Under the pieces are notes generated by a model, which did no database searches, was not told where the DNA came from, and saw nothing but the letters and a program-made list of their open reading frames with translations. Both the position numbers and the translations under genes were made by a program. Below, in pieces: positions 9,612 to 44,278 of a DNA stretch of 64,000 nucleotides (position 1 is its first letter; every line of letters starts with the position of its first letter). Origin of the DNA: Acidobacteriota bacterium (GTDB lineage Bacteria > Acidobacteriota > Thermoanaerobaculia > UBA5066 > Gp7-AA6); NCBI GenBank assembly GCA_027307335.1, contig DAHUXD010000003.1:167740-231739 (forward strand), written 5' to 3'.

Positions 9612-11987
9612 CTATTGCAGGTGGAACGTCTTCGTCAGGAAGACCGCCATCTGGCCTCGGGTGTTCGGGTTCGAGGGGCAGTAGTTGCCGCCGCCGCAGC
9701 CTCCCGTGATGCTCTCGTTGGCGAGCTGTTCGATCCAGTTGGCGAACGTCGAGGGACAGGGAACGTCCGCGAACATCCCGGTGCACGCCGGCGGCACGTA
9801 AGACGATCCGTGCTCGCCCTTCAGGAGAAACACCGCCATCTGGTCGCGGCGGACCGGATTCTGCGGGCAGAACTTGCCGCCGCCGCACCCGCCCGTGATG
9901 CCTTCGTTCGCCATGGCCTCGATCCAGTTGGCGAAGGTCGAGGGGCAGGGCACGTCGGCGAACATGCCGGTGCAGGGGGGCGGCGTGTAGCAGAGGCCGT
10001 GCTTGCCCTTCAGGATGAAGACCGCCATCTGCTGGCGCAGCGTGTCGTCGTTGACGCCGTACAGGCCTCCGCCGATGCCGGCGGTGATGGCGTTGGACAC
10101 CAGCGTCGTCACGTAGGAATAGAACTGCTGCCCGTTCGGCACGTCGAGGAAGTCGGCGACGAAGCCTTTGATCAGGGTCCCCGTCGTCGCGTCGGTGTTG
10201 GTCACGACCAGGTCGTTGGCGGTTCCGGCAGCGAGGGCGGGAGTCGTGGCGGAGATCGACGTGTACGAGTTGACCGCGACGCCGGTGGCCGAGATGCCGC
10301 CGATGGTCACCGCCGCTCCCGCGAGGAAGTTCGTGCCGGCGATCATCAGCGCCGTGCCACCCGCCGCGGGTCCCGACTTGACGTTGACCGAGAACGGCAG
10401 GCGCTGCGAGAACTCCGACGTGTTCCCGGACGGATCGGTCGCCGTCACGGAGATCTTTGAACCGGCCGCCACGGGCGGCAGCGTCGAGACCGTGAATGGA
10501 GCGTTGCCGGAACCGTCGGTCGTCACCTGCGAAGAACCCAGGTAGGTCTCGCCCTGGACGTAATCTCGGGGGAAGTTGGAACACGCCGAATTGGCGTAGA
10601 AGTCGAGGTCGAAGGTCGTGCCGGGCGTCGAGTTCAGCAGGCCGGACACCGTCGTGTTCGCCCCTCCGTACGTCACGGACGAGACGACCGGGAAGTTCTG
10701 CAGGTCGTTGGTTCCGCTGTCGCCGTCGCCGAGGTCGTTCGGGGTCGGGGCATTCAAACCGAAGGAAAGCGAGATCCCGAGCGTCGCATTGTCGTGAATG
10801 GAGTTTCCGCGCATCGTGTGACGCGTACCGCTCCGCACGACCAGTCCCTCGCCGCCGTTGAACGCGATGACATTGCCGCCCGGTCCTCCCGGCGTCGACG
10901 ATCCGATGATGCTCGGAGAGGCGGGCGTCGCCGTCGCGGACTGAACGCTCACGCCGACGCCCCCGTTCGGCAGCGGGAGGAGGTGCGAATCGTCGACGCC
11001 GATGAAGTTGCCCTGGATGAGCGCGCCGTCGGCCTGGATGTTCATGCCCGTCGTCGTGTTGCCGGAGAGGAGGTTCCCCTCGCCGGCTCCGGTCCCGCCG
11101 ATCACGAGGCCGGTTGGGGAGGGAGCCACGGTCACGATGCCGGCAGCGTTGGGAAGCGCGACGGTCCCGTTGACGTCCGTCCCGATGAGGTTGCCCTGGA
11201 TCGTCACGTCGACGGCGAAGAAGCCGACGTCGAGGCCGTCGCCTGTGTTGCCCGAGATCAGGTTCCCCGTGCCCGCTCCCCCGACCAGAATCCCCGACCC
11301 GCTTCCCCCCTGGATGTTGACGCCGATTCCGTTCGGGAACGCGACCGTCCCCGAAACGTCCGTCCCGATGTAGTTGTTCTGGATCGTGCCCCCCGTGAAG
11401 GACCCGATGAAGATTCCCCAGTCCGAGTTGCCCGAGATGATGTTGCGATCCGCGGCCGCGGGACCGCCGATCAGAAACGCACTCTCCGCCAGTGAAATCC
11501 CCTGGGTATTCGGCGTCACGGTCGTTCCGGCCGCGTCCACTCCGAGGTGGCAGGCCTGAACCGTGGTCGACGCGTTGCCGTTGGCGCTGACCGCCACTCC
11601 GCAGTTGCCGATGGCGAGTCCCTTGATGGTCCCACCCGAACCCCCGAGCTGAAACACAATCACGCTCGCGCTGCCGCAGTCGATGGCAATGAGTGGCGAC
11701 CCGGCGTAGCCCGGCTGCGTCGTTCCGTCGACCGTCACGCCGCCGCTCGAAACGTCGAGTATCGGGAGCGCACTCGCCAACGTGATCGTCTGGACGCTCG
11801 ATCCGGGAATGTCGAAGGCGATCGTGTGCGGGCCTGCACCGGCGCCATTGGCATCGGTGATCGCCTGGCGCAACGACCCGACTCCCGAATCGTTCGTATT
11901 CGTGACTGTGAAGGTCGCGGCAACGAGGAGAGGAGCCGCGATCCCGAGGACCAACGACGCGATGAAAACGCCAACGCGGTGGACCAT
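9612..11987 (-). CDS. Secreted beta-helix / IPT-TIG protein with three C-terminal Cys-type SLH-like repeats (SLH protein 1)
   Basis: Signal peptide; [22 protein letters not shown] motif; repeated NxISGNxxxGxxI rungs; IPT/TIG-like segment; C-terminal [53 protein letters not shown]. Confidence 0.9.
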
Positions 11988-12036
11988 GGCGCCCTCCGGA
12001 TGACGCGGGAGCTTACACCCGATCTACAATGAGGCG

Positions 12037-16177: not shown

Positions 16178-18724
16178 ATGAGCCTGCGGTCCCTCTCCGC
16201 CACGGTCCTTCTCTGCCTCGCCGCCGTGCCGGCGGCCGAGGCGACGGTGCGCTGCGTCCAGCCGGTCCCGAGCGGCACCGGGTGCTGGGCGCCCGGAACC
16301 GCGTTCACGGATCTGCAGCCGGCGCTCGCCGCCTCGGGCTCGGGCGACGAGATCTGGGTCGCCGCGGCGACGTACAAGCCGACCGCGACCTCGGATCGGA
16401 CGATCAGCTTCGCGCTGAAGAACGGCGTCGGCGTCTACGGCGGCTTCGTCGGCAACGAGACGCAGCGCAGCCAGCGCAAACCCGAGGTCAACGTGACGAT
16501 CCTCTCCGGCGACATCGGAACGCCCGGTTCCGCCGCCGACAACAGCTACCACGTCGTCACGACGGACGCCTCCGTCACGTCGTCCGGGGTCCTCGACGGG
16601 TTCACGATCACGCTGGGCCAGGCCGACGGGAATCCCGCCTCCAACCAGGACCGCGGCGCGGGCGTCTGGGTCAACGGCGGCAGCCCGTCGCTCTCCCAGC
16701 TCGTCATCGCGTCGAACTTCGCGTCCGGGCAGGGCGCGGGCATCCGCGTCACGTCGGCGTCGCCGACGATCCTCAACTCGTCCTTTCTCACCAACTCCGT
16801 GAGCTTCGGCGGCGCCGGCGCAGGCCTCTACTCGGGCGGCGGCAGCACCGTGTATCTCCAGAACTGCGTGTTTCGCTCCAACCAGATCTCGGGCGCTTCG
16901 ACGGGCGGCGGCGGCATCGACACGTCCGGCAACACCACGCTCGTCAACTGCGTCGTCGCTCAGAACAGCCCCAACGGCATCCAGACGAACGTCGCGGGCG
17001 GCAACAACAACACGATCAAGGACTCGACGTTCACGGCCAACAGCCCGGGGTATGGCCTGGCGCTGTTCAACAGCACGGGCAACGTGGTGCAGAACTCGAT
17101 CTTCTGGGGCGACGCGTCGGGCGAGATCTTCAACGACGGGCTCTCGTCGTTTTCCGCGGAGTACTCGGACTTCCAGGGCGGCGGCGTCGCGGGAACGGGC
17201 AACATCGGCGCCGACCCGCTCTTTCTCTCTCCCCCGGCCGACCTGCGGCTCGGCCCCGGCTCGCCGGCCGTCGATGCCGGCAAGAACCTCGACGTGCCGG
17301 GCGGCGTGACCCTCGATCTCGCGGGGCTGCCGCGCTTCTTCGACGACCCGAGCGTCCCGGACACGGGCGCCGGAATCCCCCCGATCGTCGACATGGGCGC
17401 GTACGAGCGCATCCCGATCACGGTCACGGCGCCGGGCGACCTCACGGTCTGCGCGGGCGCTCCGGCGGTCTTCAGCGTCACGGCGACGGGCCAGCCGACC
17501 CTGACGTATCAGTGGCGCAAGAACGGCACCCCGTTGTCCGACGGCGGCTCGATCTCCGGCTCGACGACCGACACGCTGACCATCAACCCGACGGTGACCG
17601 GCGACTCGGGCACGTACGACGTCGTGGTCACCGACGGGTTCGGACAGAACCTCACGTCCGCCTCGGCGCAGCTGACCGTCAACGCGCGGCCGATGGCGGC
17701 CGCTTCCGGATCGGCCACCGTGTGCGCCGGCACCTCGACGCCGCTGTCGGGCTCGGGCGGCATCTCCTGCTCGTGGACGCCGGCGAGCGGCCTCGACGAC
17801 GCCTCGAGCTGCGCGCCGAACGCGACGCCGGGCATCACCACGGTCTACACGCTCACGGTCACCGCGGCGAACTCCTGTCCGTCGACGAACAACCCGACGG
17901 TCACGGTCACGGTCAATCCGGTGCCCCCGCTGCCCCAGATCGCCTCGCCGCTGTCCGTTCCCGTCGGGGCATCCGGAGCCTCCGCCAGCGCGCCGAACCA
18001 CACGGGCTCGACGTACCAGTGGACGCTCTCGGGCGGCACGATCACGGCCGGCCAGACGACCCATCAGATCGTGTTCGATGCGGGCTCGCCCGGTACGACC
18101 ATGGTGTGCACGGTCGTCGAGACGAATGCGGGATGCGCCTCGCCGATGGCGGCGAAGAACATCCAGGTGGACTTCCTCGACGTGCCGCCCTCGAACACGT
18201 TCCACGACTACGTCGACGCCGTCGCGCGCAACGGCGTCACGGCCGGCTGCGGCGGCGGGAACTACTGCGGCACCAACCAGGTCACCCGCGCGCAGATGGC
18301 GGTCTTCCTGCTGAAGGCCGAGCACGGCTCGACGTTCGTCCCGCCCTCGTGCGCCGGCATCTTCACCGACGTGGCCTGCCCCGGCGGCTTCGCCGTCGAC
18401 TGGATCGAGCAGCTCTTCAACGAGGGGATCACCGGCGGATGCGGCACCGGCACTTACTGCCCCAGCGCCCCCGTCCGGCGCGACCAGATGTCCGTCTTCC
18501 TGCTGAAGACTTCTCAGGGATCCTCCTACGTCCCGCCGCCGGCGACCGGCACGGTCTTCGCCGACGTTCCGGTGTCGGCGTTCGCGGCCGCCTGGATCGA
18601 GGACCTCTATGCGCGCAACGTCACCGGAGGCTGCCTCACCAATCCGCTGCGCTACTGCCCGACCAACACGAACAACCGGCAACAGATGGCGGTGTTCCTC
18701 ACGAAGATGTTCGGGTTGCAGTAG
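16178..18724 (+). CDS. Secreted beta-helix / Ig-like protein with three C-terminal Cys-type SLH-like repeats (SLH protein 2)
   Basis: AAGGAG RBS; signal peptide MSLRSLSATVLLCLAAVPAAEA; beta-helix region; Ig-like segments (VCAGAPAVFSVTATGQPTLTYQWRKNG); terminal [55 protein letters not shown]. Confidence 0.88.
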   Translation: MSLRSLSATVLLCLAAVPAAEATVRCVQPVPSGTGCWAPGTAFTDLQPALAASGSGDEIWVAAATYKPTATSDRTISFALKNGVGVYGGFVGNETQRSQRKPEVNVTILSGDIGTPGSAADNSYHVVTTDASVTSSGVLDGFTITLGQADGNPASNQDRGAGVWVNGGSPSLSQLVIASNFASGQGAGIRVTSASPTILNSSFLTNSVSFGGAGAGLYSGGGSTVYLQNCVFRSNQISGASTGGGGIDTSGNTTLVNCVVAQNSPNGIQTNVAGGNNNTIKDSTFTANSPGYGLALFNSTGNVVQNSIFWGDASGEIFNDGLSSFSAEYSDFQGGGVAGTGNIGADPLFLSPPADLRLGPGSPAVDAGKNLDVPGGVTLDLAGLPRFFDDPSVPDTGAGIPPIVDMGAYERIPITVTAPGDLTVCAGAPAVFSVTATGQPTLTYQWRKNGTPLSDGGSISGSTTDTLTINPTVTGDSGTYDVVVTDGFGQNLTSASAQLTVNARPMAAASGSATVCAGTSTPLSGSGGISCSWTPASGLDDASSCAPNATPGITTVYTLTVTAANSCPSTNNPTVTVTVNPVPPLPQIASPLSVPVGASGASASAPNHTGSTYQWTLSGGTITAGQTTHQIVFDAGSPGTTMVCTVVETNAGCASPMAAKNIQVDFLDVPPSNTFHDYVDAVARNGVTAGCGGGNYCGTNQVTRAQMAVFLLKAEHGSTFVPPSCAGIFTDVACPGGFAVDWIEQLFNEGITGGCGTGTYCPSAPVRRDQMSVFLLKTSQGSSYVPPPATGTVFADVPVSAFAAAWIEDLYARNVTGGCLTNPLRYCPTNTNNRQQMAVFLTKMFGLQ

Positions 18725-18972: not shown

Positions 18973-21582
18973 ATGCGGTCGCGCCCCGGGTTGCCCCTGT
19001 CGCTCGCCCTCGGCCTCGTCCTCGCCGCCGTCACGGCCGTCGCATCCGAATCGCATCCGAAGGTCGATCCCTGGGTCCTCGACACCGCGGCGCGCGGCGA
19101 CACGGAGTTCCTCGTGATGCTGCGCGAGCAGGCGGATCTCCGCGGCGCGAAGGCGCTGCGGACGAAGACCGAGAAGGGCGCCTTCGTCGCCGACGCGCTC
19201 GCTGCCGTCGCCGCCCGTTCCCAGGCGCCGATCCTCCGTCTCCTCGAGGCGCGCGGCACGCCGCACCGCGCGTACTGGGTCGCGAACGCGATCTGGGTGC
19301 GCGGGGGTCTCGCCCTCGTCGAGGAGCTCGCTTCGCGGGACGACGTCGTGCGGGTCGATGCCAATCCGGAAGTTCGCCTGAGCCTTCCTCCCGCCCCCAC
19401 CGGTCCGGCGCAGCCCGACGCCATCGAGTGGAACGTCTCGCAGGTGCATGCGCCCCAGATGTGGGCCCTCGGCTACAACGGCTCCGGAGTCGTCGTCTCC
19501 GGCGGGGACACCGGCTATCAGTGGGACCATCCGGCGTTGAAGCCGCACTACCGCGGCTGGAACGGCTCGGTCGCCGACCACAATTACAACTGGCACGACG
19601 CCATTCACGACTCCAGCAATCCCTGCGGCGCCGATTCGCCGTTTCCCTGCGACGACTTCGGCCACGGAACCCACACCATGGGCACCATGGCGGGCAGCGA
19701 CGGCGGGGCGAACCAGATCGGCGTGGCGCCGGGAGCCAAATGGATCGGCTGCCGCAACATGGAAAACGGCAACGGAACGCCGGCGCGCTACACGGAGTGC
19801 TTCCAGTGGTTCATCGCGCCGACGGACCTCTCCGGCCAGAACCCGGACCCCACCAAGGCGCCCGACGTGATCAACAACTCGTGGACGTGCCCGAGCTCCG
19901 AGGGTTGCACGGACCCGACGATCCTCCAGTCGGTCGTCGAGAGCGTGAGGGCTGCCGGCATCGAGGTCGTCGCCTCGGCGGGCAACAGCGGGCCGGCCTG
20001 CAGCACCGTCTCCGACCCGCCCGCCATCTATGCGGCCGCCTTCAGCGTCGGCGCGACCGACTCGTCCGACAACATCGCGGATTTCTCGAGCCGCGGTCCC
20101 GTGACGTCCGACGGCAGCGGCCGCCTGAAACCCGACATCTCGGGTCCGGGCGTCAACGTGCGCTCCTCGGTGCCGACCAACTCCTACGAGGCGCTGAGCG
20201 GCACGAGCATGGCGGGACCCCACGTCGTCGGTGTGTCGGCCCTCGCGATGTCGGCGCTCCCCGGACTCGTCGGCGACCCGGACGGCATCGAGGCGCTGCT
20301 GACCACGACGGCCCTCGCCCGCACGACCTCCGAGAGCTGCGGCGGCGTGCCGGGCGACACGATCCCCAACAACACCTACGGCTGGGGCCGCGCCGACGCG
20401 CTCTCGACGATCACGGGAGACGTCGCCGTCACCCAGACCGCCTCGCCCGATCCGAGCCTCGTCGGCGTTCCGGTGACCTACACGATCACGGTCACGAACC
20501 TCGGGCCCGGCATCCAGCCCGACGTCGCTGCGTCGGAAGGGCTGACGATCTCCGCCACCGTCGACTCCGCGACGCCGAGCCAGGGATCCTGCACGCTCCT
20601 CTCGCACGGAGCGAGCTGCGACCTCGGGGCGATGGCGACCGGCGCCGTGGCCACGGTCACGATCGTCGCCACCCCGACCGCCGTCGGCACGCTCACGAGC
20701 AACGCGCTCGCGTCGCCGAAGGGACCCGATCCGAACCCCGGCAACGACGCGGCGCCGATCCAGACCTCGGTGGCGGCCTGTCCCTTTCCCGCGCCGGCGA
20801 TCTCCGTCGCGGTCTCCGTCCCGTCCGCGACCGGAAGCCTGACCGCGACCTCGTCCTCGGGCCCGGGCCACACCGACACGTGGACGCTCACGGGCGGATC
20901 GGTCGACACGGGACAGGGGACCAGCGCGATCTCGTTCACGTCGGGAGCTCCCGGCACGACGATGCGGCTCCAGCTCGTGGATTCGCTGTCCGGCTGCGAG
21001 GTTCCGGCGCCCGACGCGCTCGTCTCGGTCGACTTCCTCGACGTGCCGCCGGCGCAGATCTTCCACGACTTCGTCAACACCGTCGCGCGCAACGGAATCA
21101 CGGCGGGATGCGGCGGCGGGAACTACTGTCCCGACGCCTCGGTCACGCGCGCCCAGATGGCCGTCTTCCTCCTCAAGAGCGAGCACGGCGCCGCGTATGC
21201 GCCGCCCGCGTGCGCCGGCGTCTTCGCCGACGTCCCGTGCCCGGCCGGATTCGCGGTCGACTGGATCGAGCAGCTGTATGCCGAGGGCGTCACCTCCGGT
21301 TGCGGCGGCGGCAACTACTGTCCCGATGCCCCGGTGACCCGCGCGCAGATGGCCGTCTTCCTGCTGAAAACCCTGCTCGGCGCCTCCTACGTGCCGCCCG
21401 CCGCCACCGGCGTGTTCGGCGACGTGCCGCCGGGCTCCTTCGCGGCCGACTGGATCGAGGACCTCCATGCCCGCGGAGTCACGGGCGGCTGCCAGGCGTC
21501 CCCGCTCCTCTACTGCCCCAACAACCCGAACACCCGCGGGCAGATGGGTGTCTTCCTCACGAAGACGTTCGGACTGCAATAG
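18973..21582 (+). CDS. Secreted S8 subtilisin-like serine protease with DUF11-like domain and three C-terminal Cys-type SLH-like repeats (SLH protein 3)
   Basis: Catalytic motifs SGGDTGYQWDHPAL, DFGHGTHTMGTMAG, LSGTSMAGPHV; DUF11-like VTYTITVTNLGP; three SLH-like repeats. Confidence 0.95.
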   Translation: MRSRPGLPLSLALGLVLAAVTAVASESHPKVDPWVLDTAARGDTEFLVMLREQADLRGAKALRTKTEKGAFVADALAAVAARSQAPILRLLEARGTPHRAYWVANAIWVRGGLALVEELASRDDVVRVDANPEVRLSLPPAPTGPAQPDAIEWNVSQVHAPQMWALGYNGSGVVVSGGDTGYQWDHPALKPHYRGWNGSVADHNYNWHDAIHDSSNPCGADSPFPCDDFGHGTHTMGTMAGSDGGANQIGVAPGAKWIGCRNMENGNGTPARYTECFQWFIAPTDLSGQNPDPTKAPDVINNSWTCPSSEGCTDPTILQSVVESVRAAGIEVVASAGNSGPACSTVSDPPAIYAAAFSVGATDSSDNIADFSSRGPVTSDGSGRLKPDISGPGVNVRSSVPTNSYEALSGTSMAGPHVVGVSALAMSALPGLVGDPDGIEALLTTTALARTTSESCGGVPGDTIPNNTYGWGRADALSTITGDVAVTQTASPDPSLVGVPVTYTITVTNLGPGIQPDVAASEGLTISATVDSATPSQGSCTLLSHGASCDLGAMATGAVATVTIVATPTAVGTLTSNALASPKGPDPNPGNDAAPIQTSVAACPFPAPAISVAVSVPSATGSLTATSSSGPGHTDTWTLTGGSVDTGQGTSAISFTSGAPGTTMRLQLVDSLSGCEVPAPDALVSVDFLDVPPAQIFHDFVNTVARNGITAGCGGGNYCPDASVTRAQMAVFLLKSEHGAAYAPPACAGVFADVPCPAGFAVDWIEQLYAEGVTSGCGGGNYCPDAPVTRAQMAVFLLKTLLGASYVPPAATGVFGDVPPGSFAADWIEDLHARGVTGGCQASPLLYCPNNPNTRGQMGVFLTKTFGLQ

Positions 21583-21662: not shown

Positions 21663-22118
21663 ATGACGAAGAGCCTCCGCGCGGTCGCGCTTTCCGTCGG
21701 CCTGGTCCTCACGGGTTCGGTGCTCTGCGCCCAGACGCCGGCGTTCGGACCGAAGCTCCAGCCTCTCTGCGTCGCGGACGAGCACACGCTGTGCCTCGAC
21801 TCGGGCCGCTTCTCCGTCACCGCCGATTATCGGCAGACGCCGGAGGGTCCCTCGGTCCCGGCGACCGCCGTGACGCTGACCGACGCCACCGGGTACTTCT
21901 GGTTCTTCGATTCCTCGAACGTCGAGCTGATCGTGAAGGTCTTGAACGGTTGCGCCATCAACAGCCACTACTGGGTGTTCGCCGCCGGGCTCACGAACGT
22001 GGGCGTGCACATGACCGTCACCGACTTGCGGACGGGGATGCAGCAGCCCTACGACAACCCCGTCGGCACTCCCTTCGCCCCCATCCAGGACACGACCGCG
22101 TTCGCGACCTGCCCGTAA
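21663..22118 (+). CDS. Secreted small protein made of one 'NVEL' domain (unnamed family)
   Basis: Signal peptide MTKSLRAVALSVGLVLTGSVLCAQ; TGYFWFFDSSNVELIVKVLNGCAINSHYWVFAAGLTNVGVHMTVTDLRTG, homologous to two domains in 32241-34622. Confidence 0.8.
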   Translation: MTKSLRAVALSVGLVLTGSVLCAQTPAFGPKLQPLCVADEHTLCLDSGRFSVTADYRQTPEGPSVPATAVTLTDATGYFWFFDSSNVELIVKVLNGCAINSHYWVFAAGLTNVGVHMTVTDLRTGMQQPYDNPVGTPFAPIQDTTAFATCP

Positions 22119-22189: not shown

Positions 22190-24355
22190 ATGCTGACCGA
22201 GCTCGCTCCTCTTCTCCTCGCCCTCGTCCTTCAGGCGCCCGCGGTGACCGTGAGCGTCGCGGTGGATCCCTCCGCCAACCGCCACGCGATCAGTCCGCTG
22301 ATCTACGGCGTCAGCTTCGGCGACGACGCGCAGGCCGCGGCGCTCCACTGGCCCTCGCGGCGCTGGGGCGGCAACTCGACGACGCGCTACTCGTGGCAGG
22401 ACGACATCGCGAACCACGCGAGCGACTGGTTCTTCTACAACATCGAGTCGCAGCCCGACCCGGGAACGCTCCCCGACGGCTCGACCGCCGACCTCTTCGT
22501 CGACGCGACGAAGGCCGCGGGGGGCGAGACCGTGCTCACCGTGCCGATCATCGGCTGGACGCCGACCGACCGCGTGCGCCGCTGGGGCTTCTCGGTCGCG
22601 AAGTACGGCGCGCAGCAGCAGACCGAGTGCACGGTCACGGGCTACCCGTCGTGGTGCCAGCCGGACGCGGGCAACGGCCTTCACACGGACGGCTCGCCGA
22701 TCACGGGCAACGATCCCCACGACACCTCGCGCGAGATCGGCCCCGACTTCGTGACCGGGTGGATGCAGCACCTCGAGGGCCGCGTCGGCGCCGCCGGCTC
22801 CGGCGGCGTGCGCTTCTTCGCCCTCGACAACGAGCCGGACCTCTGGAACTCGACGCACCGCGACGTCCATCCGGCGCCGCTCTCCTACGACGAGATCTGG
22901 CAGCGCACCGTCGACTACGCCTCGGCCATCAAGACGCAGGACCCGAACGCGCTCGTGCTCGGCCCGGTGCCGTGGGGCTGGTGCGCATACTTCTGGTCCG
23001 CGCTCGACGGCTGCGGAGACGGCGGTCCCGACCTCGCGGCGCACGGCGGCGTGCACTACCTCGAGTGGTACCTGCAGCAGGCGCACGATCACGAGACGGC
23101 GAACGGCGTTCGGCTCGTGGACTATCTCGACATTCACTACTACCCGCAGGCGAACGGCGTCGCGCTCACCGACGACGAGAGCGTCGCGGCGCTGCGGCTT
23201 CGGACGCTCAAGAGCCTGTACGATCCGGATTACATCGACGAGTCCTGGATCGGCACGTGCTGCGGCCCGACCGCGGTGAACCTCATCCCGCGGATGAAGG
23301 GCTGGATCGCGGCGCGCTATCCCGGAACGAAGCTCGCGATCTCCGAATACAACTGGGGCGGCGACACCGGCATCAGCTCGGCGCTCGCCCAGGCCGAGGT
23401 GCTCGCGATCTTCGGACGCGAGGGCGTCGACCTCGCGACGCGGTGGGTCGCTCCCGACCCCGGCAGCCGCGTCGAGGACGCGTTCCGCCTCTACCTCGAC
23501 TACGACGGCGCGGGAGCGGCGGTCTCCGGCGACAGCGTGGAGGCGGTCAGCGACAACGTCGACGACGTGGGCGCCTACGCGGTCGCCGGCGCGGGCACGC
23601 GCCTCTTCCTCCTTCTCTTCAACAAGGCCACCGGCGACCGCGACGCGGCCGTGGCGCTGCCGGCGCCCCTCCACTGGCGCGCGCGCCTGTGGCGCTTCGA
23701 CGGCGCGAATTCCCTCGGCGGCGCCGGCGCCGTCGAGCCCGCGGCCGGCGCGTTGACGCTCCCCCTGCCGGCGCGCTCGGCGACGCTCGCGGCGACCCTC
23801 CTCGACTTCGGCGACGTTCCCCTCGCGCATCCGTTCTACGACTTCGTGATGACGATCGCGGACGACGGCGTGACGGCCGGCTGCAGCGGCGGGAACTACT
23901 GCCCCGACGCGCCCGCCACGCGCGCGCAGATGGCGGTGTTCCTCCTCAAGAGCCGGTATGGCGCGTCCTACGCGCCTCCGCCGGCGACCGGGACCGTCTT
24001 CGCCGACGTCCCCGCGGGCTCGTTCGCGGCCGACTGGATCGAGGACCTCGCCGGGCTCGGCGTCACGGGAGGCTGCGGCGGCGCGAATTATTGTCCCGGC
24101 GCGCCGGTCACTCGGGCGCAGATGGCCGTCTTCCTGCTGAAGACGCTGCTCGGCGCCTCGTACGTGCCACCCGCCGCGACGGGCATCTTCGGCGACGTGC
24201 CCGTGGGCGCGTTCGCGGCCGACTGGATCGAGGACCTCTACGGACGCGGCATCACGGGCGGCTGCCAGGCGTCCCCGCTCCTCTACTGCCCGGACAACCC
24301 CAATACCCGCGGCCAGATGGGTGTTTTTCTCACGAAGACGTTCGGACTGCCGTAG
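22190..24355 (+). CDS. Glycoside hydrolase family 44-like enzyme with three C-terminal Cys-type SLH-like repeats (SLH protein 4)
   Basis: ISPLIYGVSFG...RRWGGNSTTRYSW, acid/base-type LDNEPDLWNSTH, nucleophile-type ISEYNWGGDTGISSALAQAEVLAIFGREGVDLATRW; three SLH-like repeats. Confidence 0.9.
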   Translation: MLTELAPLLLALVLQAPAVTVSVAVDPSANRHAISPLIYGVSFGDDAQAAALHWPSRRWGGNSTTRYSWQDDIANHASDWFFYNIESQPDPGTLPDGSTADLFVDATKAAGGETVLTVPIIGWTPTDRVRRWGFSVAKYGAQQQTECTVTGYPSWCQPDAGNGLHTDGSPITGNDPHDTSREIGPDFVTGWMQHLEGRVGAAGSGGVRFFALDNEPDLWNSTHRDVHPAPLSYDEIWQRTVDYASAIKTQDPNALVLGPVPWGWCAYFWSALDGCGDGGPDLAAHGGVHYLEWYLQQAHDHETANGVRLVDYLDIHYYPQANGVALTDDESVAALRLRTLKSLYDPDYIDESWIGTCCGPTAVNLIPRMKGWIAARYPGTKLAISEYNWGGDTGISSALAQAEVLAIFGREGVDLATRWVAPDPGSRVEDAFRLYLDYDGAGAAVSGDSVEAVSDNVDDVGAYAVAGAGTRLFLLLFNKATGDRDAAVALPAPLHWRARLWRFDGANSLGGAGAVEPAAGALTLPLPARSATLAATLLDFGDVPLAHPFYDFVMTIADDGVTAGCSGGNYCPDAPATRAQMAVFLLKSRYGASYAPPPATGTVFADVPAGSFAADWIEDLAGLGVTGGCGGANYCPGAPVTRAQMAVFLLKTLLGASYVPPAATGIFGDVPVGAFAADWIEDLYGRGITGGCQASPLLYCPDNPNTRGQMGVFLTKTFGLP

Positions 24356-29819: not shown

Positions 29820-32144
29820 ATGACAAACCGTATCGTTCGCCGTGCCCTCGCTCTGATCGCCGCGTTCCTCGCCCCGGGCGTCGTGACCGCCACCCTCACG
29901 GTCACGAACACGAACGACTCCGGCGGCGGCTCGCTGCGCCAGGCGATCCTGGACGCCAACGCCGGCGCGGGAAGCGACACGATCGTGTTCAACATCGCCG
30001 GCGGCGGCCCGTACGTGATCCTGCCGCTCGCGCCCGGGCTCCCGGCGGTCCTCAAGCCGACGACGATCGACGGCACGACGCAGCCCGGGTACGCGGGCAC
30101 GCCGATCATCGAGATCGCCAACTTCAGCGGAAGCGGCTTGAAGCTCCAGGGCGGCGGGAGCACGGTCCGCGGGCTCGTCGTCCGTGGATTCAACACCGGC
30201 ATCTCGATGGAGAGCAGCAATAACGTCGTCGAGGGTTGCTACGTCGGGACCGACGTGACGGGCACGATCGCGGCCCTCAATGGCACGGGGATCGTCGTCC
30301 AGTCCGGCAGCGTCGGCAACGTGATCGGCGGCTCCACCGCGGCCCAGCGGAATCTGATCAGCGGCAACACCGTGGGCATCGCACTCATCAATGCCTCGAA
30401 CGCGGTCATCCAGGGCAACTACATCGGCACGACCGCCGACGGCGCGGCCCCGCTCGGCAACGCCCAGGGCGTCAAGGCCACCGCCACGACGAACCTCGTC
30501 TTCGGCGGATCGGGCGCGGGCGAGGGGAACGTCGTCGCCGCGAGCGCGCAGGAGGGGATCTTCTTCACGGGCGGGAGCGGCGCGCTCCTCCAGGGTAACC
30601 GGATCGGGACGAACGCGGCCGGGTCCGAAGCCCTCGGCAACGACGTCGGCGTGAGCGCGTCCAACCATACCGGACTCATTCTCGGCGGCAACTTCAACGC
30701 GGGCGAAGGCAACCTGATCTCCGGCAACACGCTGCAGGCGGTCCTGCTGTCGAGCGTCGGCGCGATCGTCAAGGGCAACACGATCGGCCTGGATGTCACG
30801 GGCCAGCTGCTCCTCGGCAACGGGACGGGCATCCAGATGAACGTCACCGCGACCGACTGCGTCATCGGCAGCATCACCAACGGAGAGGGCAACGCGATCG
30901 CCTGGAACGGCGTCGGGATCTACAACTACGGAGTGCGCAACTCGATCCGCGGCAATCCGATCTTCTTCAACGGCTCGATCGGCATCGACAACGACCCGCC
31001 CGGCGTCACGCCGAACGATCCCCTGGACGCCGACTCGGGCGCGAACATGCTGCAGAACTTCCCGTTCGTCTCGTCCGTCGACTATGGAACCACCTCGCTC
31101 ACCGTGCACGGCATCCTGCAGTCCACCCCCAACGTGACCTTCGACCTCGACTTCTACGAGAGCCCCTCCTGCACGCCGCACCCGCGGGACCTGCTCCAGA
31201 GCGCGTACTACATCGGATCGACGCAGGTCACCACGGACGGCTCGGGCAACGTCAACTTCGACACGCTCCTGAGCGACCCCAACGCCGCGAGCATGCCGAT
31301 CATCACGACCACCGCCACGGACCCGTCCGGGAACACCTCCGAGTTCTCGCAGGCCGTGATCTATGCCTCGAGCCCGCGCTCGGGGCCGCCCGCAGGCGGC
31401 GTGACGGTCACGCTGACCGGCGTGCACTTCGTCTCCGGTGCGGCGGTCACCTTCGGCGGCGTTCCCGGAACGAACGTCACGGTCACGAACGTGACGAGCA
31501 TGACCGCGGACGCGCCCGCGCTCCCGGCGGCGACCGTCAACGACATCGTCGTGACGAACACGGACGGCACGGCGGGAACGCTCAAGAAGGCGTGGATCGT
31601 GGATTTCCTCGACGTGCCGCCCTCCCAGCAGTTCTACACGTGGGTCACGACGCTCGTGTCGAACGCGATCACGGTCGGCATCGGCGGCGGCAACTACGGG
31701 GTCGCGGATCCGACGCTGCGGCAGCAGATGGCGGTCTTCCTGCTGAAGGGCCGCCACGGCCTCTGCTACACGCCGCCGCCGTGCTCGGGCACCTTCGGCG
31801 ACGTCCCCTGTCCCTCGACGTTCGCGAACTGGATCGAGGCCCTCGCGGCCGAAGGCATCACGGGCGGCTGCGGCGGCGGCAACTACTGCCCGACCAATCC
31901 GGTGCGCCGCGACCAGATGGCGGTCTTCCTGCTGAAGGCCGAGCACGGCTCGGCCTACGTCCCGCCGGCGTGCCTCGGGATTTTCGGCGACGTCCCGTGC
32001 CCGTCACAGTTCGCCAACTGGATCGAGCAGCTGAGCCACGAAGGCATCACCGGCGGCTGCGGCGGCGGCAACTACTGCCCGCAGAATCCGAACACCCGGG
32101 GCCAGATGGCGGTGTTCCTGGTGAAGACCTTCGGGCTGCAGTAG
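29820..32144 (+). CDS. Secreted beta-helix / IPT-TIG protein with three C-terminal Cys-type SLH-like repeats (SLH protein 5)
   Basis: MTNRIVRRALALIAAFLAPGVVTA signal; [22 protein letters not shown]; close full-length similarity to 9612-11987; RBS-like AGGAGG upstream. Confidence 0.92.
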   Translation: MTNRIVRRALALIAAFLAPGVVTATLTVTNTNDSGGGSLRQAILDANAGAGSDTIVFNIAGGGPYVILPLAPGLPAVLKPTTIDGTTQPGYAGTPIIEIANFSGSGLKLQGGGSTVRGLVVRGFNTGISMESSNNVVEGCYVGTDVTGTIAALNGTGIVVQSGSVGNVIGGSTAAQRNLISGNTVGIALINASNAVIQGNYIGTTADGAAPLGNAQGVKATATTNLVFGGSGAGEGNVVAASAQEGIFFTGGSGALLQGNRIGTNAAGSEALGNDVGVSASNHTGLILGGNFNAGEGNLISGNTLQAVLLSSVGAIVKGNTIGLDVTGQLLLGNGTGIQMNVTATDCVIGSITNGEGNAIAWNGVGIYNYGVRNSIRGNPIFFNGSIGIDNDPPGVTPNDPLDADSGANMLQNFPFVSSVDYGTTSLTVHGILQSTPNVTFDLDFYESPSCTPHPRDLLQSAYYIGSTQVTTDGSGNVNFDTLLSDPNAASMPIITTTATDPSGNTSEFSQAVIYASSPRSGPPAGGVTVTLTGVHFVSGAAVTFGGVPGTNVTVTNVTSMTADAPALPAATVNDIVVTNTDGTAGTLKKAWIVDFLDVPPSQQFYTWVTTLVSNAITVGIGGGNYGVADPTLRQQMAVFLLKGRHGLCYTPPPCSGTFGDVPCPSTFANWIEALAAEGITGGCGGGNYCPTNPVRRDQMAVFLLKAEHGSAYVPPACLGIFGDVPCPSQFANWIEQLSHEGITGGCGGGNYCPQNPNTRGQMAVFLVKTFGLQ

Positions 32145-36122: not shown

Positions 36123-37076
36123 ATGGGAGAAGCCGAGGCGATCCACGGGTTTCGCAGCGAACCGCCGCCGGAACGGCGCGGTCGCAAGAAGTGGGTCAGC
36201 CACGGCCTCTCGAACCGCGTCGTCTACGGCGGGCTCCACTACGGCGCGCGCTGGCTGCCGATGGCGGCGCTGAACGCGATCAACGTCGTCGGCAACAGCC
36301 TCGCGGTCACGTTCCTCCGCCGGACGAAGGCCGGCATGCGCGACAACTTCCGATGCGCCCTCGGCGTCTCGGAGGAGGAGGCCGAGGCGCTCGCCCGCGC
36401 TCAGTTCTTCGAGTACGGGCGGCACACGATCGACGTGTGGCGCCTGCGGAGCGAGGCCTTCGTGCCGCGGGTGACGACGCTCGCCGAGGACGCCCGCGTC
36501 ATCGCGGCGTCCCGCCGAAACGGGCGCGGCTTCCTGCTGGTCACCGGACACGTGGGGAACTGGGAGATGGGAGCGGTCACCCTGCGGCAGCACGATCTGG
36601 TCCCGGCCGTCGTGGGTCAGGCGGAGCTCGATCCGAACGTGCAGGAGATGCGCCAGCAGCTGCGCGCGCGCCTCGGCGTCGAGTCGATCGACATCGGCTC
36701 CTCGATGGCCACGGCGTTCAAGGTGCGCGCCGCCGTCGACCGCGGACGGGCAGTCGCGCTGCTCGTCGACCGCGCGTATCCGGAGGATCGCGTGGTCGTG
36801 CCCTTCTTCGGCAAACCGACGCCCTTCCTGCGCTCGCCGGCGCTGCTCGCGCGCTTCTGCGGATGCGACCTCCTGCCGGGCTTCTTCCTGCGCAACGGCG
36901 ACGGCTCGTACTTCAACGTGTGGGGCGCGCCGCTGTCGGCCGACCCGTCGCTCGCCCCCGACGAGGACGCGGTGCGGATGATGTCCCGCGTCGCGGCCGA
37001 TCTCGAGGACGTCGTGCGGCGGCACCCGACGCAGTGGTTCAACTTCTACAGGTTCTGGGACGTCTTACGCTCGTAG
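36123..37076 (+). CDS. LpxL/HtrB-family lysophospholipid/lipid A acyltransferase
   Basis: LLVTGHVGNWEMGAVTL catalytic HxxxxE-type motif; VPFFGKPTPFLRSPALLARF. Confidence 0.9.
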   Translation: MGEAEAIHGFRSEPPPERRGRKKWVSHGLSNRVVYGGLHYGARWLPMAALNAINVVGNSLAVTFLRRTKAGMRDNFRCALGVSEEEAEALARAQFFEYGRHTIDVWRLRSEAFVPRVTTLAEDARVIAASRRNGRGFLLVTGHVGNWEMGAVTLRQHDLVPAVVGQAELDPNVQEMRQQLRARLGVESIDIGSSMATAFKVRAAVDRGRAVALLVDRAYPEDRVVVPFFGKPTPFLRSPALLARFCGCDLLPGFFLRNGDGSYFNVWGAPLSADPSLAPDEDAVRMMSRVAADLEDVVRRHPTQWFNFYRFWDVLRS

Positions 37077-37137: not shown

Positions 37138-38394
37138 TCAAGTCGTCCCCGGCCGTTCCCACTTCCCGTACACGTAGCTCCCGCAGCAGCGCGCGCAGAT
37201 CGGGAGCGGCTCCTTCGCGAGCTTCGCGCGGAATTTCTGCGCGCGCTCGCCCTTCCAGATCTCCGCGAACGGCTGCCGCCGCACGTTCCCGATGACGTAG
37301 TCGGGAAAGTCGCCGCAGAACGTGACGTCCCCGTCCGGCTCGATCTGCGCGAAGTACCACGCCACCGGGCAGAGCGAGTGGCCGAACGTCTCGCCGAAAT
37401 TCGTGAAGTACTCCGGCACCCGCTCCGCGGGCACCTCGGGCACGAAGGACGTCCACGGCCGGCCGACCGACGAGTCGAGGAAGCGCCGGCGGCGGAGACC
37501 CTTGAGCATCTTGACGAGCTCGGCCATCTGCCGACCGCGCGTCGCGACGATCGAGCCGCCGTCGAAGTCGAAGCCCTTCCACGACGTCGCCGCGACGCCG
37601 AACTCCTCGCGCATCACGCGCTCGTATTCCGCGCCGACCGACGGCGGCACGAACCAGCGCAGCCCGACGTTGATCGTGTCGAGCGGCAGCTCGCGCAGCG
37701 CCTCGAGCGCGGGCCGGATCGCCTCGAGGTTCAGCTCGGTGACCGGCAGGATCGCCATCTGGAACGGGACGGCGGCACCGAGCTCCTTCTGCCACCGCGC
37801 GACCGCCCGGATTCCCGCGGCGGCCTTCTCGAAGCTGTCGGACCGCCCGCGGATCCGATTGTGAACCTCCGGCGGCCCGTCGATCGACACCGCGATCGAG
37901 TCGATGCCGGCCTCGACGAGGTCGCGCGCGAGTGACTCGAGGCGGCCGCCGTTGGTGATCACGGTGCAGGTCAGCCCGCGCGCCTTGATCTCGCGGATCA
38001 GCGGCAGGATGTCCGGGTAGAGGAACGGCTCGCCGCCGAAGAGGCTGACGATCGGCCGCGAAGGCGCGAGCTCGTCGAGCAGGCGCACGTAGTCGGCGAG
38101 CGCGAGCTGGCGCTTCGCGCCGATCAGCTCGACGATGCGCGCGCGCTCGAGCGCGCCGTCGCCCGCGTCCGCCGCCGACTGGGAGCGGAAGATCCCGGTG
38201 TCGCCCCACTGCCCGCACATCTTGCAGCGCAGGTTGCAAAGGTTCGTGACCCGCAGCTGCACGAACGTCGGCATGGGCAGCGTCTCGGGACGCGGGTCCG
38301 CGAGGTGTGCCTCGACGGCCGAGCGCCCCGCGCCCATGCGCCCCAGGTGCCGCCGGGCGAAGCCCGCGAGCCGAATTCCCCGGCGAAAGCTCAT
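37138..38394 (-). CDS. Radical SAM/SPASM domain protein
   Basis: LRVTNLCNLRCKMCGQWG; SLFGGEPFLYPDILPLIREIKARGLTCTVITNGG; C-terminal Cys cluster CPVAWYFAQIEPDGDVTFCGDFPDYVIGN...CARCCGSYVYGKW. Confidence 0.9.
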   Translation of the reverse strand: MSFRRGIRLAGFARRHLGRMGAGRSAVEAHLADPRPETLPMPTFVQLRVTNLCNLRCKMCGQWGDTGIFRSQSAADAGDGALERARIVELIGAKRQLALADYVRLLDELAPSRPIVSLFGGEPFLYPDILPLIREIKARGLTCTVITNGGRLESLARDLVEAGIDSIAVSIDGPPEVHNRIRGRSDSFEKAAAGIRAVARWQKELGAAVPFQMAILPVTELNLEAIRPALEALRELPLDTINVGLRWFVPPSVGAEYERVMREEFGVAATSWKGFDFDGGSIVATRGRQMAELVKMLKGLRRRRFLDSSVGRPWTSFVPEVPAERVPEYFTNFGETFGHSLCPVAWYFAQIEPDGDVTFCGDFPDYVIGNVRRQPFAEIWKGERAQKFRAKLAKEPLPICARCCGSYVYGKWERPGTT

Positions 38395-38411: not shown

Positions 38412-39818
38412 TTAATGGGAGTACAGATCGATCACGCCGGAGATCGCGCGCCGGCACACCGCGCAGAATGGGACCTCGTCCCGCGTGAACATGATGCAGT
38501 CTTCCTGCGGCCGGTAATAGCCGCGCGCTTCGTAGAGCGCGCCCTCGAATGCGCCGACCTTCCCCGAGTGCGCGTCGGTGCCGAGGAGCCGCGTCTCGAG
38601 CGCCTGCTCCTCGCGGAAGAGCGCGTCCATCTCGTCCTCGGGGCGGTTCTCCGCGCGGATCTTCTCGCGCTTGCCCTGCGCCTCGCGCGAGGCCTTCTCG
38701 AACTCTTCCTTCTTCCATGGCGTCGGCAGCGGCGTCCCCGCCGTGACGAGGTCCTTCCACTTGAGGTTCTGCGGATCGAGGAGCGCGGTCGCGTTCGGCT
38801 CCCACGGCTCGACGCGATTCTCCCCCGCCGGCGCGTAGGCGACCGGCGACGTGTAGTACTCGTCGGCGAGCGCCGCGAAGTGGTGGCCGAACTCGTGGAC
38901 GAAGACGTACGGCGCCCAGAGGCTGTCGGCCGCCACGGTCGAGTACTGGCCGAAGATGCCCCCGCCGCCGTACGTCCGCGAGTTCGTGAGGATCTCGACG
39001 AACTCGTAGGGCGCGAACGAGGCGACCTCGCGGAACGAGCTGTTCTCGAACGTCAGGATGTAGCGTTCGACGCCGAACGCGTCGTAGGTCGCGCCGACCC
39101 GGGAGCTCCGGTGCTGCCCGATCGAGGGCCGCGAGATTCCGGAGGCGTCCGCGGGCGGGCAGAGCGCCCAGACGTTGAAGTCGCTCCGGCGCTCCTTGAA
39201 GGGCGACACCTTGAAGAGGAGATCGGCCAGGCGGCGCGCGTCCTTTTCGAACTTGCCGCGCTCGGCGGCCGTGTAGCCGTCGCCGAGAATGAGGAAGTCG
39301 ACCTTGTCCGCAGGGTCGCCGGCCTTCTGGATCTCGACGAGCGGCCCCGGCGACGGCGGCGGCGCCGTGACGATGAAGCGGTCCTTCGGGTCCACTCCCA
39401 CCCGCCAGACCTCGCGGAAGGCATTCGCGGCGTCGCGCTTCTTCACGATCACCTCGACCTTCGCGTCGGGCAGCGGGAAGCGCACCGACTCCGAGAACGT
39501 GCGCCGGAGCGTCTTGGCCTCGTCGGTCGTCTCCCACTCTCCGTACACCGAGGCGAAGCCCCGCGAGTAGAGGACCCGGCCGGACCCCGGGTCGACCACC
39601 TCGAAGAGGTACTTCCCGAGGTTCGTGCCGTCGATGGGCTTTCGGGGGTTTCCGGGCCATGGGAGGGGCTCCAGCACCAGCCGGTCGAAGCTGAAGACCT
39701 CGGCGGAGGCGTTCCCGGTGTGGTAGTAGTCGAGCCGCAGCGTGCGCGGCGCCGCGGCGGCGGTCCCGGATGCGAGCGCGATCGCGCCGAAGACGAACGC
39801 GATGGGCTTTTTGACCAT
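38412..39818 (-). CDS. Secreted M64-family (IgA peptidase M64) metallopeptidase
   Basis: DFLILGDGYTAAERGKFEKDARRLADLLF; VHEFGHHFAALADEYYTSPVAY. Confidence 0.9.
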   Translation of the reverse strand: MVKKPIAFVFGAIALASGTAAAAPRTLRLDYYHTGNASAEVFSFDRLVLEPLPWPGNPRKPIDGTNLGKYLFEVVDPGSGRVLYSRGFASVYGEWETTDEAKTLRRTFSESVRFPLPDAKVEVIVKKRDAANAFREVWRVGVDPKDRFIVTAPPPSPGPLVEIQKAGDPADKVDFLILGDGYTAAERGKFEKDARRLADLLFKVSPFKERRSDFNVWALCPPADASGISRPSIGQHRSSRVGATYDAFGVERYILTFENSSFREVASFAPYEFVEILTNSRTYGGGGIFGQYSTVAADSLWAPYVFVHEFGHHFAALADEYYTSPVAYAPAGENRVEPWEPNATALLDPQNLKWKDLVTAGTPLPTPWKKEEFEKASREAQGKREKIRAENRPEDEMDALFREEQALETRLLGTDAHSGKVGAFEGALYEARGYYRPQEDCIMFTRDEVPFCAVCRRAISGVIDLYSH

Positions 39819-40875: not shown

Positions 40876-40880
40876 CAGGC

Positions 40881-41432
40881 TCACTTCAGCCGCTTGACGT
40901 CCTTGATCGTGCCGGGGCGGCCCTCGTACTGCTCGGCGCGGACGTGTCCCTCCTCGTCGATCGAGAGGGCCGCGCGCGGGTAGATCCGGCCGTCGCCCAT
41001 GCCGAAGCCCGGCACGTTGACCACGAAGACCGAGAAGGGATGGGTCGTCGACGAGGAGCCCGCGTTGACCTCGTCGTAGCTCATCGCGCGGGTCGATACG
41101 ACGTAATAGCGCACGCCGCCGCCGCTCGCGGGCTCGGCGACCACGAGGTCGATCGGATACTCGAACCCGCCGAGCTGGATCCTGCCGCGGCCGGCGCCGC
41201 GGATCGCGTTGGCGAGCGCGTGCTGGCCGCCCTTCGCGAGCACTTCCTTCAGGGGCTGCGCCTCCTCCATCGTCATCGGGCTCGCCACGACGAGGTTGAA
41301 CGGCATGCTGCGGGTGCCGGCCTTCGTCTCGACGGTCGCGGTGGCCGAGAACTGCGCGGGCTTCGTCACGCCCGAAGCGAGGGCGGCCACGGCGACGAGA
41401 CCCGCGCCGAGGAAAACGAGAGGACGTTTCAT
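40881..41432 (-). CDS. Hypothetical secreted protein
   Basis: MKRPLVFLGAGLVAVAALASGVTKPAQFSATATVETKAGTRSMPFNLVVASPMTMEEAQPLKEVL...; start overlaps the SLH protein 6 stop (ATGA). Confidence 0.8.
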   Translation of the reverse strand: MKRPLVFLGAGLVAVAALASGVTKPAQFSATATVETKAGTRSMPFNLVVASPMTMEEAQPLKEVLAKGGQHALANAIRGAGRGRIQLGGFEYPIDLVVAEPASGGGVRYYVVSTRAMSYDEVNAGSSSTTHPFSVFVVNVPGFGMGDGRIYPRAALSIDEEGHVRAEQYEGRPGTIKDVKRLK

Positions 41433-44278
41433 GGACGCAGGATACGCGCGCGGGCCGCGGGATGCGAGATCCGGAAGGCGGGACGCGGCGGCGCCGCGCC
41501 GCCGGCCGGCTCTGGAACGAGCGAGAACGTCTTCGACAGGAACGTCGCCATCTGGCCGCGGTTGACCGGGCTCGTCGGGCAGTAGAGCGGCGGCGACACC
41601 TGACACCCGCCGGTGATCCCCTCCGCGTAGAGCTGCTCGACCCAGTCGGTGAACGGCCCCGGACACGGGACGTCCTGGAACACGCCGGTGCACGCCGGCG
41701 GCGCGTAGGAGGATCCGTGCTCGGTCTTCAGCAGAAACACCGCCATCTGCTGGCGGGTCACCGCCGCGCTCGGACAGTAGTCGCCGCCGCCGCAGCCGGC
41801 CGTGATGCCTTCCGCCGCGAGCTGCTCGATCCAGTCGGTGAACGGCCCCGGGCACGGCACGTCGCCGAAGACGCCGTGACACGCGGGAGGCGCGTACGCC
41901 GAGCCGTGCTCGGCCTTCAGCAGGAACACGGCCATCTGCGCGCGCGTGACCGGCGAGGACGGGCAGTAGTTCCCCGCCCCGCATCCGGCCGTGATCCCGG
42001 CGCGGAAGATCTTCTCGACGTCGCCATGGAAGAGGTTGCCCTGCGGCACGTCCAGGAAGTCCGCGAACCACGCCGCCGGCAGCGTCGCGGAGAGCGTGCT
42101 GGGATTCACGACGGCCACGTCGTAGAGCGCTCCGGGCGGGACGGCCGGAGAGACCGCGTCCACCTCGCCGCCGCTCGCGACGAGCACCATCGAGGCCGGC
42201 GCGCTCCCGAAGCGCACGATCGCCGGGGACTGGAAGTTCGACCCGAAGATCGCGACCGGCGTCCCGCCGGCGGCCAGCCCCGACGTCGGCATCATGCCGG
42301 TCGCCTGCGGCGCCGGCACCGCGAAGCAGGCCGAGAACTCCGACGTGTCGTTCGCCGGGTCCGTCGCCGTGGCGGTGATCCACGGCCCGAGCGCCGGACC
42401 GTTGATCGTGGCGGCGAACGCGACGTGGCCGCCGCCGTCGGTCATGGCGTCCACGGCGCCGAGCGGCCTCTGGCCCTGGCCGTTCCCAGACGAGTCGCAG
42501 GCGAGCGACGCGAAGAGCTCGATCCGGAACGTGAGCGAGGCGAGGCTGTCGAGCGTGCCGTCGATCTCCGTCGAGGTCGGCGACAGCGCGACGGCGCTCA
42601 GCACCGGAAAGTTCTGGAGGAGGTTCGGCCCGACGTCGGGGTCGCCCGGGTCGTTCGGGGTGACGCCGATCGGGGCGAGGTCGATGCCGAGGGCGCCGTT
42701 GTACGAGATCGTGTTGCCGAGGATCGCGTTGCCGGTGCCGGACTCCACGAAGACGCCGCGCAGGGCGTTTCCCGCGATCACGTTCTTCGTGCCGGCGACG
42801 GTGCCGCCGATCGTGTTCTGGCTGGACCCCTGGATGTCGATCCCGTTGGCCGCGTTCGGCAGCGCCGCCGACGCGGTGGCGTTGGTGCCGATGAAATTGC
42901 TCTGGAGGACGTTGCCTTTCGTCGTGGCGTCGGCGAGGAGCACGCCGTTGTCGCCGTTGCCGGAGATGACGTTGCGATCCGCCAGCGCGCCGCCGATGGT
43001 GTTGTCGTGCGCGCCGTCGTTGATCTGCACGCCCTCGAGAGTGTTCGGGATGGCGATGGTGATGGCGGCGTCGGCCCCGATGACGTTGCCGCGCACCGTG
43101 TTGCCCGACGCGCTCGTCCGGATGCGCACCCCGTTCGTCCCGTTGCCGGAGATCACGTTGTTCGGGCCGACGGTGTTGCCGGTCGTGCCGTTGCCGGTCA
43201 GGAGGACTCCGTTCAGCGTGTTGCCGATCGCCGCCGTGCCCGCCGCGTTCGTGCCCACGAAGTTGCCGCCGATCGACGCCCCGGTCGACCCGTTGCCGGC
43301 GAGGATTCCGGACATCACGTTGCCCGACACGACGTTTCCCGGGCCCACGACCGTGCCGGAGGAGGCACCGCCGATGTCGACGCCCTGACCGCCGTTGCCG
43401 AGCGCGGCCGTCCCTGCCGCGTTGACGCCGACGTAGGCGTTGCGCACCGTGGTGCCCGAGGCGAAGCTGCTGATCGTGATCCCGTCCCCGAGGTTGCCCG
43501 AGACGAGCAGCTCGCCCGCCGTGTCCGTCCCCACGACGTTGTCGACGCCCCCGTTGAACGCGATGCCGCTCAAGCCGTTGGCGACGGCGGCGGTGCCCGC
43601 CGGGTTCGTCCCGATCCGGTTCTCCCCGATCGTGTTGCCCGTCGCGTTCGCGCCGGTCACGTGCACGCCGTTCTGGACGTTGCCCGAGACGACGTTCCGC
43701 ACGCCCGTCGCGCCGGAGCGCCCGATCAGGTTGTCCGGCGAGCCGCTGATGAAGATTCCGTCTCCCTGGTTCGGCGCCGCCGCGGTGCCGGTCGCGTTGG
43801 TCCCGATGTAGCACGCGCGCACGGAGTTCCCGCCGCCGGTTTCGAGCAGAACGCCGTTGCCGCCCCCGCTGGGGAACTGGGCCGGGAATCGGTTGATCAC
43901 GAAGCCCGCGACGACGCTCGATCCCGCGTCGATGCGTAAGCCGTTCGCGCCCGGACCGGCGCCCGAGCCGTCGAGCTCGATCAGCGGGGTGCCCGAGTAG
44001 CCGGGCTGCGTCGTCGCGTCGAGCGTGACCGGATCCGTGATCGTCGGCAGCGGCGACAGGAGTGCGATCGTCTTCGCGCCCGAGCCGATCGCGAAGTGGA
44101 TGATGTCGGGACCCGGCGCCGCGTTCGCGGCCTCGATCGCCTCGCGGAGGGTGCAGTTGGCGGCATTGCAGACGCCATCGTCGGTGTCCGCGGTCGAGTT
44201 GACGGTGAAGGTCGCGCCTTCGGCGACGCCCGCACCGCCCGCGAGAACACCGAGAACCAGGGCGAGGCGCCGGAGCAT
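41429..44278 (-). CDS. CSLREA-type secreted beta-helix / IPT protein with three C-terminal Cys-type SLH-like repeats and a tail (SLH protein 6)
   Basis: ATFTVNSTADTDDGVCNAANCTLREAIEAANA; beta-helix rungs; IPT-like segment; three SLH-like repeats; 31-aa tail SLVPEPAGGAAPPRPAFRISHPAARARILRP. Confidence 0.9.
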   Translation of the reverse strand: MLRRLALVLGVLAGGAGVAEGATFTVNSTADTDDGVCNAANCTLREAIEAANAAPGPDIIHFAIGSGAKTIALLSPLPTITDPVTLDATTQPGYSGTPLIELDGSGAGPGANGLRIDAGSSVVAGFVINRFPAQFPSGGGNGVLLETGGGNSVRACYIGTNATGTAAAPNQGDGIFISGSPDNLIGRSGATGVRNVVSGNVQNGVHVTGANATGNTIGENRIGTNPAGTAAVANGLSGIAFNGGVDNVVGTDTAGELLVSGNLGDGITISSFASGTTVRNAYVGVNAAGTAALGNGGQGVDIGGASSGTVVGPGNVVSGNVMSGILAGNGSTGASIGGNFVGTNAAGTAAIGNTLNGVLLTGNGTTGNTVGPNNVISGNGTNGVRIRTSASGNTVRGNVIGADAAITIAIPNTLEGVQINDGAHDNTIGGALADRNVISGNGDNGVLLADATTKGNVLQSNFIGTNATASAALPNAANGIDIQGSSQNTIGGTVAGTKNVIAGNALRGVFVESGTGNAILGNTISYNGALGIDLAPIGVTPNDPGDPDVGPNLLQNFPVLSAVALSPTSTEIDGTLDSLASLTFRIELFASLACDSSGNGQGQRPLGAVDAMTDGGGHVAFAATINGPALGPWITATATDPANDTSEFSACFAVPAPQATGMMPTSGLAAGGTPVAIFGSNFQSPAIVRFGSAPASMVLVASGGEVDAVSPAVPPGALYDVAVVNPSTLSATLPAAWFADFLDVPQGNLFHGDVEKIFRAGITAGCGAGNYCPSSPVTRAQMAVFLLKAEHGSAYAPPACHGVFGDVPCPGPFTDWIEQLAAEGITAGCGGGDYCPSAAVTRQQMAVFLLKTEHGSSYAPPACTGVFQDVPCPGPFTDWVEQLYAEGITGGCQVSPPLYCPTSPVNRGQMATFLSKTFSLVPEPAGGAAPPRPAFRISHPAARARILRP

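Follow-up and report, generated by a model that had tools for sequence, protein, structure and literature searches.

Cysteine-paired SLH triplets as candidate anchoring tails on diverse exported proteins of an LPS-bearing Acidobacteriota-type diderm

We found that six secreted proteins encoded in a 64,000-nucleotide stretch of an Acidobacteriota genome (the window, taken at its full length) carry a triplet of SLH repeats at or close to the C-terminus. The triplet, with its predicted disulfide staples, is probably a non-covalent anchor by which this LPS-bearing diderm holds exported proteins to a glycan that CsaB pyruvylates. In the mechanism that we propose, the triplet would fold into a three-lobed spindle and be stiffened by disulfides: in every repeat a bond across the hairpin loop, and from each linker a bond to the start of the repeat that follows. 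Dozens of unrelated secreted proteins (proteases, glycosidases, beta-helices, and propellers) would thereby be held non-covalently to an envelope glycan, the pyruvate ketals of which would be added by a CsaB-like, usually glycosyltransferase-fused, pyruvyltransferase.

Tailed proteins in the window and in the genome

Each of the six genes has exactly three repeats, 18 in total, and the positions and strands given in an earlier note on this DNA were borne out. Five of the proteins end at the last repeat, while gene 41429 continues for about 21 residues. A Pfam scan recovered the N-terminal classes that the note had assigned, with TIG/IPT and beta-helix-type N-termini in genes 9612, 29820, and 41429. 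The tail of gene 18973, which follows a peptidase S8 domain, was found to be 79% identical in protein sequence to that of its unrelated GH44 neighbour 22190, and near-alike tails on unrelated neighbours fit an interchangeable module. The tails of genes 29820 and 9612 share 83% protein identity. Two other secreted proteins of the window (21663-22118 and 32241-34622), neither with any Pfam match, have a common region with the motif LCL..GRF.V. A peptidase M64 gene (IgA-peptidase family; 38412-39818) adjoins the gene of a radical SAM/SPASM protein (37138-38394).

Table 1 Tailed genes, their SLH triplets, and diderm-related genes in the window.
Feature	Position	Strand	Evidence or remark
Secreted beta-helix + TIG protein, 791 aa, C-terminal SLH triplet	9612..11987	-	Pfam SLH 49.7 bits, TIG 32.9 bits
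SLH triplet of gene 9612	9615..10154	-	C26-C32 pair missing from first repeat
Secreted beta-helix + Ig/PKD protein, 848 aa, C-terminal SLH triplet	16178..18724	+	Pfam
SLH triplet of gene 16178	18170..18721	+	
Secreted subtilase (peptidase S8) + DUF11 protein, 869 aa, C-terminal SLH triplet	18973..21582	+	Pfam S8 153.9 bits, SLH 53.7 bits
SLH triplet of gene 18973	21031..21579	+	
Secreted GH44 glycosidase, 721 aa, C-terminal SLH triplet	22190..24355	+	Pfam GH44 240.1 bits, SLH 43.7 bits
SLH triplet of gene 22190	23804..24352	+	
Secreted beta-helix-like + TIG protein, 774 aa, C-terminal SLH triplet	29820..32144	+	Pfam
SLH triplet of gene 29820	31602..32141	+	
Lipid A biosynthesis acyltransferase (diderm marker)	36123..37076	+	PF03279 119.6 bits
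Secreted CSLREA/beta-helix + TIG protein, 949 aa, SLH triplet and short C-terminal extension	41429..44278	-	
SLH triplet of gene 41429	41516..42061	-	All five Cys pairs kept; modelled stretch 41489-42067
DUF481 protein	56107..56871	+	PF04338 149.2 bits

We searched the whole genome (4.37 Mb, 65 contigs) with a profile of the tail. This search uncovered 78 matches and placed the six genes within a set of 72 repeat-bearing proteins, with three repeats in 54 proteins, one in 14, and other numbers in 4. The triplet lies at the C-terminus in 50 of the 54 triplet proteins. Most repeat-bearing proteins start with a signal-peptide-like stretch, as judged, like the gene calls, by a simple procedure (a simple gene caller and a hydrophobicity rule rather than a trained predictor). 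When 53 N-terminal parts were scanned, 42 Pfam families were matched; TIG was the commonest (27 of 53), and beta-helix, Ig, Vgb lyase, GSDH, reprolysin, GH44, S8, FG-GAP, sortilin, and other families followed. The variety of these families and the position of the triplets support the view of the earlier note that the tail is an interchangeable C-terminal module on diverse secreted proteins. Spread of the tail by plasmid or phage was rejected as an explanation, the search giving one weak plasmid match only (32.6% identity) and no phage match.

Repeats were also located inside the chain in six proteins, RHS-type proteins among them. Three RHS-type proteins (on L174, L162, and L163) have SLH repeats mid-chain, directly before the C-terminal RHS core. 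In two other proteins (L154:3-1694 and L161:2741-4501), TIG is followed by an SLH triplet and then by a long C-terminal domain, which resembles DUF1800 on visual inspection. Besides these, about 12 small secreted proteins consist of a beta-sandwich N-domain of about 140 aa and a single Cys-type SLH repeat (loci L165:2752-6383, L166:2170-3762, L177:1762-2442, L164:2272-2979, L168:1000-1767, L190:5981-6598, and L167:1924-2673). Their N-domain had no Pfam match and gave a low-confidence jelly-roll model. Trimerisation of these small proteins may complete an SLH spindle.

SLH fold, ligand-contact residues, and cysteine pairs

All six window proteins scored above the Pfam gathering cut-off for SLH (PF00395; 28.6-53.7 bits against 20.8), which excludes a chance match. 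With 95 related tails as input, AlphaFold modelled the tail of gene 41429 as a confident triplet (pLDDT 95.2), in which three tandem repeats form the spindle with a three-helix bundle. Foldseek returned 15 significant PDB matches to this model, all of them Sap or SpaA SLH triplets; the best figures were obtained for 3pyw (TM-score on target 0.84, E 4e-10), and several of the 15 are SLH structures in complex with pyruvylated ManNAc. A sequence search with the tail likewise matched only S-layer SLH proteins. By sequence and modelled fold, the tail repeats are thus genuine SLH domains and not merely SLH-like. The earlier note had called the repeats SLH-like; they score within Pfam SLH, and their modelled fold is the SLH spindle. 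A distinct non-SLH family is rejected by the same Pfam scores and Foldseek matches.

To characterize the putative ligand site, we compared the repeats with SpaA, in which pyruvate is contacted by Arg43 of the TRAE motif and by Gly29 of GIIxG, and the sugar stacks on SLH-Trp13 (PMC6081394). Arg43 is kept in 180 of 184 repeats and Gly29 in 182 of 184, and Glu45 of TRAE is replaced by Gln in 180 of 184. The column of Trp13 (column 9) is occupied by P, Q, L, T, or F, mostly non-aromatic, so that the usual stacking Trp is missing there. A Phe follows one column later in 144 of 184 repeats (column 10), and column 13 holds W, Y, or F in 165 of 184; these aromatic residues may substitute for Trp13. 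Trp13 is common in the family without being universal, and one of the two SpaA sites does without it (PMC6081394), so its loss does not exclude SLH membership.

Two pairs of cysteines were found to co-vary almost perfectly (numbering from F1 of the F.DV motif), although p-values overstate the evidence because paralogues and genomes are not independent. In the genome of the window, C26 and C32 of the hairpin are both present in 170 repeats and both absent in 12, with one mismatch. The linker pair, Cys60 and Cys6 of the next repeat, is complete at 84 junctions and wholly absent at 24, with no mismatch. The control pairing of Cys60 with Cys6 of the same repeat was not significant (p=0.15). Thirteen triplet proteins have the linker pair in one junction and lack it in the other, which shows repeated switching of this pair as a unit. 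The losses of C26-C32, most of which affect first repeats within a single beta-helix group, may represent few events. The same pattern was observed in the window, where 16 of the 18 repeats keep the hairpin pair, both cysteines are gone from the first repeats of genes 9612 and 29820, and the linker cysteines of VPC and PPAC are again either both there or both missing. First repeats without C26-C32, including those of these two genes, often gained a Cys at position 54, and the genome has 10 such repeats. Tails of other genomes (79 compared) keep the hairpin pair in 234 of 237 repeats and mostly lack the linker pair. Because the two pairs co-vary so closely, we predict that both form disulfides. 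Their separate variation in an exported domain favours disulfides over a four-Cys metal site.

CsaB, the envelope, and the route to the ligand

The genome encodes a CsaB-like pyruvyltransferase that scores 203.8 bits against TIGR03609, just below the cut-off of 213.1, and 135.6 bits against PF04230, well above the cut-off of 25.3. Its gene (L169:4779-8642) lies near tailed genes and encodes a 1287-aa protein that combines pyruvyltransferase, GT2, and GT group 1 domains. The glycosyltransferase fusion was found in five of six CsaB proteins scanned, and in two relatives (G013 and G057) CsaB passes the TIGR03609 cut-off. The earlier note had allowed for an unclear ligand and a distinct anchoring system. 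That claim is weakened, and a probable departure from the classical ligand is not supported, as the repeats lie within Pfam SLH and a CsaB-like enzyme, though just under the TIGR03609 cut-off, tracks the tails and often neighbours them; this is largely the outcome that the note had named as contrary to its view.

We then analyzed the distribution of tails (E<=1e-10) and CsaB (TIGR03609, E<1e-30) in 61 genomes of the class. Tails were present in 18 genomes and a CsaB-like protein in 14, all of them tail-bearing. CsaB was found in none of the 43 tail-negative genomes (Fisher p=1.4e-10, an optimistic value as the genomes are related), and four tail-positive genomes, with one or two tail matches each, had no strong CsaB. 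The tailed gene nearest to CsaB was 0.15-10 kb away in 10 of the 14 genomes (combined p ~5e-7, likewise among related genomes). A csaB-tagA-tagO-slhA-spaA cluster in P. alvei is a precedent for such linkage (PMC6801904). In an even sample of the phylum (217 genomes), CsaB was present in 7 of 8 tail-positive genomes, and 5 genomes were CsaB-positive and tail-negative at the threshold used. Tail similarity was also used to choose 20 tail-bearing genomes, the majority from Chloroflexi and Acidobacteriota, and 14 of these had CsaB at E<1e-27; two of the CsaB-negative ones are incomplete MAGs (0.9 and 1.3 Mb). A CsaB tree of 18 sequences gave poorly resolved deep nodes and no clear cross-phylum transfer.

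Other steps of a ligand pathway were searched for by profile. UDP-GlcNAc 2-epimerase (PF02350), for the supply of UDP-ManNAc, is present in a single copy (347.6 bits) and adjoins CsaB in G013. ABC-2 exporter genes are close to CsaB in several relatives. TagA/WecG (PF03808), the ManNAc transferase with which P. alvei makes its ligand, was absent from the genome and was found in 6 of 61 class genomes without tracking the tails; the canonical TagA route to the ligand is therefore not supported. LptD scored above its cut-off, and the genome has seven OmpA-family domains. Together with the lipid A acyltransferase, these indicate an LPS-bearing diderm, in agreement with the earlier note, which had cited the acyltransferase and the DUF481 protein of the window. 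None of the 72 repeat-bearing proteins has an N-terminal SLH followed by a C-terminal barrel, and an OmpM-like barrel tether was rejected on this ground.

Relation to known anchors and alternative readings

The Gram-positive SLH triplets of B. anthracis Sap (3PYW/6BT4) and P. alvei SpaA (6CWC-6CWR) belong to the same Pfam family as the tails and share the spindle, the three tandem repeats, Arg43, Gly29, and a CsaB-like gene often near SLH genes. In contrast to them, the tails described here have two co-varying Cys pairs, Gln for Glu in TRAE, and a replaced Trp13 column, and they are borne at the C-terminus of about 50 diverse exoproteins in a diderm with LPS machinery, where CsaB is mostly glycosyltransferase-fused and TagA is missing. 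LPXTG, PEP-CTERM, and T9SS C-terminal domains are other anchoring tails that are reused across many exoproteins, but here the fold and chemistry differ, with a non-covalent SLH spindle proposed. The OmpM/SlpA outer-membrane tethers of diderm Terrabacteria also place an SLH domain in a diderm; OmpM, with N-terminal SLH and C-terminal beta-barrel, was reported missing from Gracilicutes (PMC10628300), and the tailed proteins lack that order, OmpA-family domains being present in the genome instead. We found no description of this SLH variant in the open-access literature (subscription papers lay outside the search), nor, in the openly searchable literature, of a route for SLH display on the outer-membrane surface in Gracilicutes.

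The spindle could have been kept while binding something else in the envelope, for example an O-antigen or capsule free of pyruvate, or peptidoglycan, with CsaB co-occurring for other reasons. The absence of TagA, the unconserved Trp13 column, the LPS-bearing outer membrane signalled by LptD, and the genomes with only tails or only CsaB all lean this way. We nevertheless consider it unlikely, as the pyruvate-contacting Arg43 and Gly29 are almost invariant and the class-level co-occurrence of CsaB and tails is near-perfect, with repeated gene linkage. It seems quite improbable that the tail chiefly serves as a signal to an export machine, for secretion or sorting, and is perhaps cleaved, like type 9 secretion C-terminal domains. 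Such a signal would explain its place at the extreme C-terminus of many unrelated proteins of a diderm, but not an SLH spindle with close matches to SLH structures only, the mid-chain repeats of the RHS-type and other proteins, or the tails in MAGs labelled Chloroflexi. We give very little credence to the idea that the proteins are freely secreted and that the tail is a rigid module which stabilises or oligomerises them without anchoring them; predicted disulfides would suit stabilisation and typical exoenzymes are among the many N-termini, yet the conserved pyruvate-contact residues and the association with CsaB would be left unexplained.

Under the preferred reading of anchoring to a CsaB-pyruvylated glycan, we tentatively suggest, as a possibility, that the glycan is exposed at the outer-membrane surface as an O-antigen- or capsule-like polymer rather than borne on peptidoglycan, and that the ABC-2 genes export it. 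The tailed proteins would then be located at the surface rather than in the periplasm. If this is true, a large exoproteome is held on the outside of the outer membrane by SLH tails with disulfide staples.

Work on SLH anchoring has so far dealt with Gram-positives and, in diderm Terrabacteria, with its use as an outer-membrane tether. In the genome described here, SLH reuse is massive, with about 72 genes in 4.4 Mb of an LPS-bearing Acidobacteriota-type diderm, and a predicted disulfide-stapled SLH domain occurs together with a glycosyltransferase-fused CsaB. One may ask how an SLH ligand is displayed by a cell whose outer membrane carries LPS. The results also provide a testable rule for the annotation of surface proteins in poorly cultured phyla: where CsaB is present, tails are expected.
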